38,980 bases of DNA from Magnetospirillum sp. WYHS-4 (GTDB taxonomy: Bacteria; Pseudomonadota; Alphaproteobacteria; Rhodospirillales; GLO-3), in contig JAMOBD010000024.1 of NCBI GenBank assembly GCA_039908345.1, positions 1-38,980 of the forward strand, read 5' to 3'. Shown piece after piece: positions 7,249 through 29,436 of this stretch; the stretch's first letter is position 1, and each line of letters begins with the position of its first letter. A program made the position numbers and the translations under genes. The notes below the pieces were generated by a model that had not been told where the DNA came from, searched no databases, and saw only the letters and a program-made list of their open reading frames with translations.

Positions 7249-8337
7249 ATGCTCTACCACATCCTCTTCCCCATGGCGGATCAGTTCGGTTTCCTGAACG
7301 TCTTCAAATACCTGACCTTCCGCACCGGCGGAGCCATCCTGACCGCGCTAGTCATCAGCTTCATGGTCGGCCCGGTGCTGATCGAGGTGCTGCGCCAGAA
7401 GCAGGGACGCGGCCAGCCGATCCGCGAGGACGGGCCGGAAAGCCATCTGCTGACCAAGAAGGGCACGCCCACCATGGGCGGCTTCCTGATCCTGCTGGCA
7501 CTGGTGGTTTCCACCCTGCTGTGGGCCGACCTCCGAAACCCATACGTCTGGGCGGTCATGGCGGTAACCCTGGGCTACGGGATCATCGGCTTCCTCGACG
7601 ACCACCTCAAGGTCTCGCGGCGCAACCCCAAGGGGCTGCCGGGCAAGCTCAAGCTGCTCATGCAGGTTTCGATCGCCCTCGTGGCGGCCTTCTGGATCGT
7701 CGACCATCTGCCGGACGGCCTGGCGACCAAGGTCGCCATCCCGTTCTTCAAGGCCGCCCTGTTCGACCTGGGCTTCGGCTTCGTCCTGCTGGCCGTCTTC
7801 GTGATGGTGGGCGCCTCCAACGCGGTCAACCTGACCGACGGCCTGGACGGCTTGGCCATCGGCCCGGTGATGATCGCCACCGGCGTCTACATCCTGATCG
7901 CCTACCTGGTCGGCCATACGGTTTTCGCCAACTACCTCCAGCTTCCCCATGTGCCGGGTTCCGGCGAACTGTCGGTCTTCCTTGGGGCGCTGCTGGGCGG
8001 CGGCCTGGGGTTCCTTTGGTTCAACGCGCCGCCGGCCCGCATCTTCATGGGCGATACCGGCTCGCTGGCCTTAGGGGGCGCCCTGGGGGCGGTGGCCGTG
8101 GTCACCAAGCACGAAGTTGTTCTGGCCATCGTCGGCGGCCTGTTCGTGCTGGAGACGGTCTCGGTGATCGTCCAGGTCGCCTCGTTCAAGCTGACCGGCA
8201 AGCGCGTCTTCCGCATGGCGCCGCTGCACCATCATTTCGAGAAGAAGGGCTGGGCCGAACCGACCATCGTCATCCGCTTCTGGATCATCGCCGTCATCCT
8301 GGCGCTGATCGGCCTGTCCACCTTGAAGCTGCGCTAG
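7249..8337 (+). CDS. mraY: Phospho-N-acetylmuramoyl-pentapeptide transferase MraY
   Basis: MraY is the integral membrane enzyme that transfers phospho-MurNAc-pentapeptide to undecaprenyl phosphate, giving lipid I. The 362-residue, about ten-helix protein contains the catalytic Asp pair at 117-118 (FLDDHLK), [11 protein letters not shown] at 191-201, [12 protein letters not shown], and the HHH triad at 327-329 in [12 protein letters not shown]. Length and motif order are normal. The start is ATG 7249, just after murF; murD follows after 18 bases. Confidence 0.97.
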
Positions 8338-9705: not shown

Positions 9706-10832
9706 CCGCCACCCCCTTCCTGCGCAACGACAACAGCCTGATCGCCCGCTGGTGGTGGACGGTCGACCGCATGACCCTAACCGCCCTGATGGTGCTGATC
9801 GCCCTGGGCGCCCTGATGGCCCTGGCCGCCTCGCCGGCGGTGGCGGACCGCATCGGCCTCGACAGCTTCCACTTCGCCCGCCGCCAGTTCGTCTTCCTTC
9901 CCTTCGCCCTGGTGGTGATGCTGGGGGTCTCGCTGCTCTCTCCGGCCAACGTGCGGCGGCTGGGGCTGGCGATGTTCGCGGGCTTCTATTTGTTGACCGC
10001 CGCCACCCTGGTGATCGGCGTCGAGATCAAGGGCGCCCATCGCTGGCTCCACCTGGGCGGGCTGTCCCTGCAGCCGTCCGAATTTCTCAAACCCGCCTTC
10101 GCGGTCCTGGTGGCCTGGATGCTGGCCGAGCACCGCCTCGACCGCCACTTCCCCGGCCGCGCGATCGCCTTCGGCCTGCTGGTCTTCGTGCTCGCCATCC
10201 TGGCCCGCCAGCCCGACATCGGCATGTCGGCGGTGATCCTGGGTACCTGGGGCGTCCAGTTCTTCCTGGCCGGCCTGCCCTTCCTCTGGGTGGCGGTGCT
10301 GGGATTGGGCGGCGTCGGCCTGCTGGGCGCCGCCTACATGGCCCACGACCACGTGCGCAGCCGCATCGACCGCTTCTTCGATCCCAGCGGCGAGGAACCC
10401 TACCAGATCATGCGCTCCATGCAGGCCTTCAAGAACGGCGGCCTGTTCGGCACCGGCCCCGGCGAGGGCAAGGTCAAGTCGATGCTGCCCGACGCCCACA
10501 CGGATTTCGTCTTCTCGGTGGTGGGCGAGGAATTCGGCCTGATCGCCGCCCTTCTGGTGGTCGGCATCTTCGCCTTCGTGGTGCTGCGCGGCTTCGCCCG
10601 GGTATTCAAGGACGAGGACATCTTCGTCATGCTGGCCACCTCGGGCCTGCTCACCCAGTTCGGCCTGCAGGCGATCATCAACATGAGCTCGGCGCTCAAG
10701 CTGATCCCGCCCAAGGGCATGACCCTGCCCTTCATGTCCTACGGTGGTTCCTCCACCGTGGCGCTGGCCTTGGGCATGGGCATGGTTCTGGCGCTCACCC
10801 GCCACCGGCCCCGCGCGGGAGGTGCCCCGTGA
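9702..10832 (+). CDS. ftsW: Septal peptidoglycan glycosyltransferase FtsW
   Basis: FtsW is the SEDS-family polymerase that makes septal glycan strands from lipid II in partnership with FtsI. The 376-residue polytopic protein shows SEDS hallmarks: [20 protein letters not shown], the periplasmic-loop block [13 protein letters not shown], and the C-terminal [19 protein letters not shown]. The start is ATG 9702 overlapping murD (ATGA); the stop overlaps the GTG start of murG (GTGA). Confidence 0.96.
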
Positions 10833-23109: not shown

Positions 23110-26872
<3,763 letters not shown>

Positions 26873-27039: not shown

Positions 27040-27249
27040 ATGGCCGTCAACGTCAAACTCTCGGAATCCCTGATGGAACAGGCCCGTCTCCACGGCCGGG
27101 TTCAGCACCGTTCCGTGCCCAAGCAGATCGAATACTGGGCGCAGGTCGGCCGGATCGCCGAGGAAAACCCGGACCTGCCCTTCGCCATGATCCGCGATAT
27201 CCTGATCTCCCGACAGGAAACGGCAACCGAAGAGTATCGTTTCGGCTGA
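27040..27249 (+). CDS. ParD-like antitoxin
   Basis: The 69-residue product starts with VNVKLSESLMEQARLHG and continues RSVPKQIEYWAQVGRIAEENPD, a pattern typical of ParD-like antitoxins with a short ribbon-helix-helix-type DNA-binding N-terminus and an extended C-terminus that wraps the toxin. ATG 27040 follows GTGAGGCAGCC. Its TGA shares one base with the ATG of the toxin gene, the usual antitoxin-first arrangement. By analogy it would repress its own operon. Confidence 0.75.
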   Translation: MAVNVKLSESLMEQARLHGRVQHRSVPKQIEYWAQVGRIAEENPDLPFAMIRDILISRQETATEEYRFG

Positions 27250-27518
27250 TGCGGATCGTCGTCTCGCCGACCTTTTCCCGCGCGGTCAAACGGCTTCATG
27301 AAAATCAGAAGGCCGCCCTTGACGGCGCTGTCCGCGAGATCGCCCGGAACCCGCGATTAGGGGATGCGAAGGTCGGCGATCTTGCCGGTGTCCGGGTATT
27401 CAAGTTCCGGATGGTCGATCGGCTCTGCCTGCTGGCTTACACGCAGCCGGAGGACGACATCCTCGAACTCCTGGCTCTCGGCGCCCACGAGAATTTCCAC
27501 CGAGACCTGAAGCGCTGA
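27249..27518 (+). CDS. RelE/ParE-family toxin
   Basis: The 89-residue basic protein begins MRIVVSPTFSRAVKRLHENQK and contains NPRLGDAKVGDLAGVRVFKF and LCLLAYTQPEDDILELLALG. It ends HENFHRDLKR, matching the RelE/ParE fold: an N-terminal helix pair, a central beta sheet with basic residues, and a C-terminal H-x3-H-type tail. RelE members cut mRNA at the ribosome and ParE members poison gyrase; the sequence alone does not decide between them. It overlaps the antitoxin gene by one base. Confidence 0.75.
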   Translation: MRIVVSPTFSRAVKRLHENQKAALDGAVREIARNPRLGDAKVGDLAGVRVFKFRMVDRLCLLAYTQPEDDILELLALGAHENFHRDLKR

Positions 27519-27557
27519 CCGTGCCGCCACCCCTGGCCGGGCTTTCGGGCGGACGGG

Positions 27558-27827
27558 ATGAACGACGCCCTTCGCCAGGCCTTGTGCCTGGTCAAGGAAG
27601 CTGTCGAGGTGGCATTCTGACCTACTACGAGACCGCCGCCCCTAGCAGATGCGCTATATCCCCAGGCAGTCAGGGGATATCTCGTATCCTATAGAGACAT
27701 CTCGACCATCATTAACGACAATAAGGTGTTTCGCGGGGACAATGGCCACCTGGGAGAATTCATCCGGAAATCCTATGAGCATGCCCTGGGGCTGCGCCTT
27801 CGTGAGCGCGATAATCGGCCGCTTTAA
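27558..27827 (+). pseudogene. Decayed reading frame, unknown family
   Basis: In one frame, ATG 27558 begins MNDALRQALCLVKEAVEVAF, hits TGA at 27618-27620, and then stays open for about 68 codons to TAA 27825-27827. The downstream part reads like real protein (GYLVSYRDISTIIN, then GEFIRKSYEHALGLRLRERD) but has no ATG and no ribosome-binding site. Codon use is less GC-biased at third positions than in neighbours. The two parts may be one gene interrupted by a stop or a frameshift. I do not recognise a family. A minus-strand frame of 61 codons over the same DNA is an alternative. Confidence 0.3.
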
Positions 27828-27855
27828 TGTCATATGCACGCAAAAGGGCCGGAAC

Positions 27856-27883
27856 GAGAAAAGGCGGGGTGCGCACCCCGCCT
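27856..27883 (-). terminator. Intrinsic terminator of the minus-strand small RNA
   Basis: AGGCGGGGTGC (27862-27872) and GCACCCCGCCT (27873-27883) form an 11-bp perfect palindrome. On the minus strand it is followed by TTTTCTC; on the plus strand the following bases (CTTCTGG) are much less T-rich, so it points leftward. Confidence 0.75.
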
Positions 27884-27975
27884 CTTCTGGTCTGGTATCC
27901 TCCCCCCACCGCTACGGTGGTCCACCAGACGCTGTCCTCTGCCTACGTCCTCCCGGTCCCCACCGGTCCGTAGTT
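27857..27975 (-). ncRNA. Unannotated GGA-rich small RNA, about 119 nt
   Basis: On the minus strand a promoter (TTGCAA, 17 bases, TAATAT) predicts a start near 27975. The transcript would fold into three elements. Hairpin 1: CTACG/CGTAG (27969-27973 with 27943-27947) enclosing CCGGT/ACCGG with a GGGG loop. Hairpin 2: GTCTGGT/ACCAGAC (27924-27930 with 27890-27896) enclosing CCACCG/CGGTGG with a triloop. Third is a perfect terminator stem at 27862-27883 followed by TTTTCTC. Eight GGA trinucleotides lie in about 95 bases, several in internal loops or the linker (GAGGA, GGGGAGGAU). No reading frame of note is present. It does not match 6S, SRP, RNase P or tmRNA landmarks that I know. A CsrA/RsmA-type sponge or a Shine-Dalgarno mimic is speculation. 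Confidence 0.6.
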
Positions 27976-27981
27976 GTCCTG

Positions 27982-28010
27982 ATATTAGCGTCACCCTTCC
28001 GTTTTTGCAA
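27982..28010 (-). promoter_or_regulatory. Sigma70-type promoter of the small RNA
   Basis: Reading the minus strand, TTGCAA (28005-28010) is separated by exactly 17 bases from TAATAT (27982-27987). These match consensus at 4 of 6 and 5 of 6 positions, unusually good for this GC-rich genome. The next gene in this direction is only the small RNA. Confidence 0.65.
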
Positions 28011-28178
28011 ACCTTATCCGCATTTTCGGCATGGCTATCGCCAGGTTATTCCATCCTGCCGCATCGATTGACCGTTATTATTACACCGATGGCACGTCAT
28101 ATTCCCCTTGCCGGCCCTTGCCCGAAGGCTCTGCCGAACCAAGATTGAATCAGGAATGCTATGCAATGGAGGATCGTC

Positions 28179-28463
28179 ATGGCGACGCCCCGTTGGGAGA
28201 ACCAACCGCCGATCGACGGGCTATTCTGCCGCCTGGGGGCGGCCGACGGCTATGGCGGCGAGGCGCCGGGCGCCGAATACTGCCACGGCGAGGCCGGCGA
28301 ACCCGATGCCGAATTCGAGCCCCCGCGCGACAAGACGCGCATCGTCGATTTCCATCTGGTCCCGAATGGCCGCTTCTGGGTCTGCTACGACGACCTGTGC
28401 CGCGAAGGCACCTACGAGGAAGCCGTCTACCTGCTGGCCGGCCGGCGTGAAATCGAAGGATGA
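28179..28463 (+). CDS. Small acidic hypothetical protein
   Basis: The 94-residue product starts at ATG 28179, which has a strong GGAGG six bases upstream; ATG 28161 is in frame but overlaps that site and is less likely. The protein is acidic and soluble, with no signal peptide or membrane segment. Its N-terminal half is rich in Gly, Glu and Pro and carries two Cys. Its C-terminal half looks folded (RIVDFHLVPNGRFWVCYDDL, then EGTYEEAVYLLAG). I do not recognise a family. It ends seven bases before the stop of the convergent sigma54 activator gene. Confidence 0.65.
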   Translation: MATPRWENQPPIDGLFCRLGAADGYGGEAPGAEYCHGEAGEPDAEFEPPRDKTRIVDFHLVPNGRFWVCYDDLCREGTYEEAVYLLAGRREIEG

Positions 28464-28470
28464 AGGAAGC

Positions 28471-29436
28471 TCAGGCCTGGATGGCGTGCTTCTTGATGCG
28501 ATAAAGCAGGGTATCGCGGGTCAGCCCCAAGAGGCGTGCCGCCCGCGAACGGTTGCCGCCAGCCTTTTCCAGGGCCATGCGGATCATGTCCCGTTCCACC
28601 GACACCAAGCTGATGCCCGATTCCGGCAGGCCGAGTGCCAAGCCGGGGGCTCCGGCTTCGCGGCCCCGCATCTCGGGCGGCAGGTCCTCGGGCCTTACCG
28701 GGATGCCGGCCCGCAGCACCGCCATGCGCTCGCACAGATTCCTCAACTCGCGCAGGTTTCCGGGCCAGCCGTGACGGCTCAGCATCGCCAGCGCTTCGGG
28801 CGTGAAGCGCGGCGCCTCGTTGCCGTGGCGCGCCGCCGCCCGTTGGGCGAAGACCTGAATAAGCAGCGCCAAGTCGCCGGTGCGTTCGCGCAACGGCGGC
28901 AGGGTGAAGGGCACCACGTTGAGCCGGTAATAGAGGTCGGCGCGGAACAGGCCCCCATCCACCAGATCGTGCAGGTCCCGGTTGGTCGCCGCCACCAGGC
29001 GCACGTCGGCGCGCGCCGGACGGGTATCGCCCACCGCTTGCACTTCGCCGGAATCGAGGAAACGCAGCAGCTTGCCCTGGGCTTCCAGCGGCAGTTCGCC
29101 GATCTCGTCCAAAAACAGGGTGCCGCCGTCGGCGGCCCGTACCCGGCCGGGATGGCTGGTGCCGGCGCCGGTAAAGGCGCCCTTGCGATGGCCGAACAGT
29201 TCGGATTCCACCAGTTCCGACGGCAGGGCCGCGCAATTGATGGTCACCAGAGGCCGGGCGGCGCGGCGACTTTCGCGATGGATGGCCTGGGCCAGCAGTT
29301 CCTTGCCGGTGCCGCTTTCGCCCTGGATCAGCACGGCCACATCGACCGCCGCCGCCAGGCGCGCGGCGCGCAGCACCGCCTGCAACTCGGGGGAGTTGCC
29401 GACGAAAAGCTGGTCGAAGGCGTCAGCATGTCTCAT
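28471..29436 (-). CDS. Sigma54-dependent transcriptional activator lacking a receiver domain
   Basis: The 321-residue protein is an AAA+ enhancer-binding protein that would remodel sigma54 RNA polymerase. It has Walker A GESGTGKE at 39-46, an intact GAFTGA loop at 86-91 for contacting sigma54, Walker B GTLFLDE at 105-111, an arginine-finger region (FRADLYYRLNVVPFTLPPLR), and a C-terminal Fis-type helix-turn-helix (GGNRSRAARLLGLTRDTLLYR). Only about 14 residues precede the AAA+ domain, so there is no receiver or sensor; control must come from a partner, as in PspF-like proteins. ATG 29436 overlaps the stop of the upstream TauE-type gene by ATGA. Confidence 0.9.
   Translation of the reverse strand: MRHADAFDQLFVGNSPELQAVLRAARLAAAVDVAVLIQGESGTGKELLAQAIHRESRRAARPLVTINCAALPSELVESELFGHRKGAFTGAGTSHPGRVRAADGGTLFLDEIGELPLEAQGKLLRFLDSGEVQAVGDTRPARADVRLVAATNRDLHDLVDGGLFRADLYYRLNVVPFTLPPLRERTGDLALLIQVFAQRAAARHGNEAPRFTPEALAMLSRHGWPGNLRELRNLCERMAVLRAGIPVRPEDLPPEMRGREAGAPGLALGLPESGISLVSVERDMIRMALEKAGGNRSRAARLLGLTRDTLLYRIKKHAIQA

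Follow-up and report, generated by a model that had tools for sequence, protein, structure and literature searches.

The region described here belongs to the genome of Magnetospirillum sp. WYHS-4 (3.65 Mb in 172 contigs, rated 100% complete with 2.76% contamination), and the window, that is the whole stretch of 38,980 nucleotides that was analysed, corresponds to contig 24. A candidate small RNA (sRNA) gene in this window is flanked by ligA and a toxin-antitoxin pair on one side and by a 100-aa open reading frame (ORF) on the other, with the following features.

ORF ending at 26872: ligA, with NAD-dependent DNA ligase domains (Pfam)
27040-27518, plus strand: ParD-like antitoxin and ParE-like toxin pair (PF11903, PF15781), immediately downstream of ligA
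27696-27820: decayed frame, sharing 82% identity with the 3' end of a 217-aa ORF from another part of the same genome
27975-27857, minus strand: predicted 119-nt transcript, from the spacing of candidate promoter and terminator
28010-28005, minus strand: candidate -35 hexamer TTGCAA, read from the sequence, agreeing with TTGACA at 4 of 6 positions
27987-27982, minus strand: candidate -10 hexamer TAATAT, after a 17-nt spacer, agreeing with TATAAT at 4 of 6 positions
27973-27943, minus strand: hairpin 1, whose asymmetric internal loop has GAGGA on the 3' side, according to the minimum free energy fold and the probabilities of being unpaired
27931-27942, minus strand: linker GCAGAGGACAGC, with its central 8 bases unpaired and one AGGA
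27930-27890, minus strand: hairpin 2, with an asymmetric internal loop of 8 nt (GGGGAGGA) on its 3' side
27888-27857, minus strand: intrinsic terminator hairpin, formed by a 22-nt palindrome (27883-27862) and followed by TTTCTC
28161-28463: 100-aa ORF without a Pfam match

The initial annotation had placed the RNA beside a toxin-antitoxin pair and a decayed frame, and these neighbours were identified as the ParD-like/ParE-like pair and as a truncated gene copy whose paralog lies elsewhere in the genome. The decayed frame is a truncated copy that corresponds to the 3' end of the 217-aa ORF on contig 17 (L096, 5830-6483). That ORF overlaps a 383-aa ORF at the latter's end, and the 383-aa ORF has HTH_3 and IrrE N-terminal-like (Peptidase_M78) domains; neither the 217-aa ORF nor the decayed-frame fragment has a match in Pfam. 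The interval holding the decayed frame and the candidate RNA was probably rearranged. The further idea that the RNA itself could be part of a mobile island is unsupported, as it is present in a single copy and plasmid and phage collections gave no match to a 642-base query that includes it. Of minus-strand ORFs adjoining the terminator, only short ones were listed, 54 and 56 aa long and located upstream of it.

Sequenced relatives of this lineage are few in the collections used, since the 60 genomes drawn as relatives include one of the same family (G001, 99% complete) and none of the same genus. G001 encodes a relative of the 100-aa ORF with 59% identity (L009, about 9950-10192), and no other relative was found in the remaining 58 genomes searched or in the genome_contigs collection. 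The G001 ortholog has other genes upstream; comparison of the window with 19 kb of G001 (L009) gave no DNA match between window positions 7494 and 28341, similarity resuming only inside the 100-aa gene. LigA shares at most 67% identity (best segment) with the best 80 of 209 named ligA loci, a list in which the first two rows are Rhodospirillales metagenome-assembled genomes and which may lack the own genome or very close ones.

The two hairpins with asymmetric loops that had been described on the minus strand are borne out by the predicted fold, and the palindromic terminator by both the fold and a terminator scan. The scan, covering 27500-28500, recovered the terminator, which sits in the intergenic region, together with one other minus-strand site (28219-28206), compared with an average of 0.6 in shuffled sequences. 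Relative to dinucleotide shuffles, the minus-strand fold has a z-score of -5.5 for 119 nt and -4.35 for 126 nt. The two hairpins without the terminator (27890-27975) gave z -4.0, with none of 500 shuffles folding as well, although placing the ends of the stretch at the hairpin base favours a good fold score, and a terminator-free stretch cut two bases short of hairpin 2 reached only z -2.0. The plus strand folds nearly as well (z -4.5 in full, -3.6 without the terminator), and folding alone therefore cannot fix the strand, which is weakly indicated by the orientation of the promoter and terminator.

Eight GGA trinucleotides, several of them unpaired, had been reported for this locus, and eight were counted in the predicted transcript (nine in 27980-27857), of which four are wholly unpaired in the predicted ensemble and the other four each have one paired base. 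Among 119-nt windows of either strand in a 439-kb sample of the own genome (20 stretches plus the window), 0.19% contain at least eight GGA. When GGA was counted in the 95 nt upstream of terminator-like sites in the same 439 kb, the candidate ranked first of 23 sites, with eight against four for the next; one of the 23 sites is the plus-strand reading of this palindrome. GGA density and a terminator form an unusual combination, but these traits were also the reason for choosing the locus. The stretch 27980-27857 carries four AGGA and one ANGGA, one AGGA preceding the predicted start, and the predicted fold presents no A(N)GGA within any terminal hairpin loop. The GGGG loop of hairpin 1 includes two bases of one GGA, the A of which is paired; this GGA is not preceded by an A. 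The predicted transcript is free of ATG, and a stop breaks two of its three frames. A coding reading through the 54-aa GTG frame at 27994-27830, which spans the transcript, was judged unlikely because its start lies only about 20 nt before the predicted RNA start.

The proposed minus-strand promoter, TTGCAA-17-TAATAT, is present where it had been placed. It is weak, matching 8 of 12 consensus positions (4+4), and a promoter scan of 27500-28500 with a threshold of 9/12 did not report it and returned no minus-strand promoter. Pairs of promoter-like hexamers matching at least 4+4 positions, with A and T fixed in the second hexamer and a spacer of 16-18, occur at about 0.33 per kb of strand in the 439 kb of own genome, or roughly once per 3 kb.

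Searches for homologs returned little beyond the locus itself. With a 171-nt query, blastn matched one of 60 genomes including the own one, namely itself; with a 642-nt query against 314 genomes of the order, it gave itself, one 31-nt match that lies outside the RNA and, in the own genome, the paralog of the decayed frame, with only two candidates scored per genome among the matches listed. A covariance model built from this one sequence recovered only the locus itself in 385 genomes of the class and in 398 of the phylum, and in 317 genomes of the order it added two weak matches (E 0.017 and 0.030, one genome each); these three sets overlap and include the own genome. Distant homologs may have been missed, because the model rests on one sequence, its filters were stricter and few candidates (at most 13 among the matches listed) were scored per genome.

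The two weak matches (L011 and L012) gave E 0.0003 each when four loci were searched. The L011 match lies within a 545-aa ORF on the same strand. In the L012 match, hairpin 1 is well covered but most of hairpin 2 is missing, and inspection by eye showed no terminator downstream of it. Both were regarded as chance matches. Two further matches in ligA neighbourhoods (L017 and L032, E 0.28 and 0.68) were likewise set aside. No convincing homolog was found with the model in the best 80 of 209 ligA loci together with the window, L009 and L096, some of these ligA loci holding little DNA downstream of the gene, and nothing was obtained in L009. Two exact patterns searched in viral contigs led to no recognised homolog. 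A repeat element was rejected, as nothing was found in the own genome apart from the self match and the reverse of the palindrome.

The locus had been called apparently undescribed, and in agreement with this no Rfam 15 family reached its gathering score anywhere in the window. A permissive search of 27600-28200 gave 12 matches, comprising RF00166 (PrrB_RsmZ) and 11 microRNA models. RF00166 was the best of them, at 21.2 bits against a gathering score of 44, and in a search of the whole genome with this family the candidate locus ranked best (E 0.0139), above nine weaker matches. However, RF00166 also matched weakly in 12 of the 14 control genomes when E values up to 10 were allowed, with none over the cut-off, and its model rewards GGA and a terminator, the traits by which the locus was picked. 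The likeness to PrrB/RsmZ extends to length, number of GGA, unpaired GGA, hairpins and the intrinsic terminator. For instance, one report describes the RsmZ of P. fluorescens as 127 nt long with eight GGA, four stem-loops and a terminator, and states that A(N)GGA is presented in hairpin loops, an ANGGAX loop atop a stem being bound with high affinity (PMC4005645). In contrast, the candidate has two hairpins before the terminator, and its GGA are located mainly in internal loops and the linker. No GacA-type box was seen by eye upstream of it.

The initial annotation had suggested a protein-sequestering RNA of the CsrA/RsmA type, and this suggestion did not hold, as neither CsrA nor presentation of A(N)GGA in hairpin loops was found. 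The CsrA domain (PF02599) had no match at E 0.001 in the own genome, the best chance match being at E 8.2, whereas the controls E. coli, B. subtilis and T. maritima were over the cut-off; CsrA was also not found in G001, the single family relative. It is possible but unlikely that a csrA gene was missed in a gap of the 172-contig assembly, because neither genome shows it. The candidate can thus not be classified here as a CsrA sponge, and this class was rejected. CsrA is present in 24 of 199 genomes of the order, where it is nearly confined to one family and genus (f29, g30), which account for 22 of the 24 (e.g. L003-L006). In the open-licence literature, nothing was found that joins CsrA, CsrB, GGA motifs and alphaproteobacteria.

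The preferred reading, to which we give a tentative probability of about 0.48, is that the minus strand of this intergenic locus holds an sRNA gene that is transcribed independently and restricted to the lineage (about 27975 to about 27857), the product of which may act by base-pairing through unpaired G-rich segments, possibly aided by Hfq. What the initial annotation observed was confirmed and its interpretation partly supported, a small RNA gene with a terminator being fair as a reading of the letters of the locus.

The main alternative is that there is no sRNA gene at all, the palindrome serving as a (perhaps bidirectional) terminator for the toxin-antitoxin region and the G-rich stretch being decayed or a chance occurrence in a genome of high G+C content. 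A terminator-like tail, TCTTCT, follows the palindrome on the plus strand, and such an origin would agree with the similar folding of both strands, with the lack of detected conservation of the candidate sequence in the genomes searched and with the truncated gene copy that adjoins the G-rich stretch. However, the GGA density places the locus within the top 0.2% of windows and first among the 23 terminator-like sites, the two-hairpin fold outperforms all 500 shuffles, the promoter-like hexamers are correctly placed, and the plus-strand gene pair ends about 340 nt short of the palindrome. On balance we regard the absence of a gene as the less likely case, though one with a fair chance.

An improbable alternative is that the RNA mimics a Shine-Dalgarno sequence and binds the anti-Shine-Dalgarno region of 16S rRNA, or that it acts as a sponge for alphaproteobacterial sRNAs of the CcsR/cuckoo kind that bear CCUCC. 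Two segments contain a GGAGG that is wholly or mostly unpaired, but the core complementarity extends over only about 5 nt and no conservation was found. The CcsR/cuckoo RNAs are short hairpin sRNAs of the same broad kind as the candidate and carry CCUCC loops; the term CUCCUCCC was not found in the cuckoo RNA paper. The likeness to them lies in the complementary strand at this locus, which carries CCTCC, whereas the candidate strand presents GGAGG and is single-copy, and no DUF1127 gene was noticed beside it among the ORFs read. It is still less probable that a GGA-rich, RsmZ-like RNA sequesters a different GGA-binding protein, or sponges CCUCC-bearing sRNAs, in a lineage without detectable CsrA.

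A CCUCC-repeat, cuckoo-like sRNA transcribed in the opposite direction would agree with the CCTCC segments opposite the GGAGG ones and with the folding of the plus strand, for which the z-score remains -3.6 without the palindrome. However, the palindrome would then fall at the 5' end, the candidate promoter is oriented the opposite way, the scan of 27500-28500 showed no plus-strand terminator-like or promoter-like site, and the permissive Rfam search of that strand gave only microRNA models with E above 1; we consider a functional plus strand very improbable. Titration of CsrA by a CsrB/RsmZ-type RNA is the least credible explanation, being largely refuted by the absence of CsrA despite the resemblance to RsmZ and to RF00166.

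For the preferred minus-strand sRNA gene, transcription would start at about 27975 and end at the terminator at about 27857. The unpaired G-rich segments, namely GAGGA in hairpin 1, AGAGGACA in the linker and GGGGAGGA in hairpin 2, could then pair with C/U-rich stretches in mRNAs or in other sRNAs, and Hfq may assist this pairing. Base-pairing would be the most likely route if the RNA acts, because the own genome encodes Hfq (E 7.6e-32) and CsrA was not found. When the three accessible segments were compared with five neighbouring start regions, pairing was no better than with random windows: in the best of the 15 comparisons, 19% of random windows did as well, some of the starts being approximate. 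No target is therefore proposed.

The candidate resembles Hfq-dependent trans-encoded sRNAs in being intergenic, about 100 nt long and provided with an intrinsic terminator, in a genome that contains hfq. As for the signals of a trans-encoded sRNA, the terminator was recovered by the scan and the candidate promoter, at 8/12, was missed by it. A short U-tract (here TTTTCTC) is unfavourable to Hfq binding, and in contrast to Hfq-dependent sRNAs the candidate has a U-tract that is short and interrupted, and no known family or target.

If transcribed, the candidate would be another orphan small RNA, from a Rhodospirillales-like lineage that has been little sequenced. It would be of interest if the RNA were to act as a sponge for a different GGA-binding protein. 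The presence of RsmZ-like features in a genome with no detectable CsrA would, if the RNA is transcribed, warn against naming Csr sponges by GGA counts alone.
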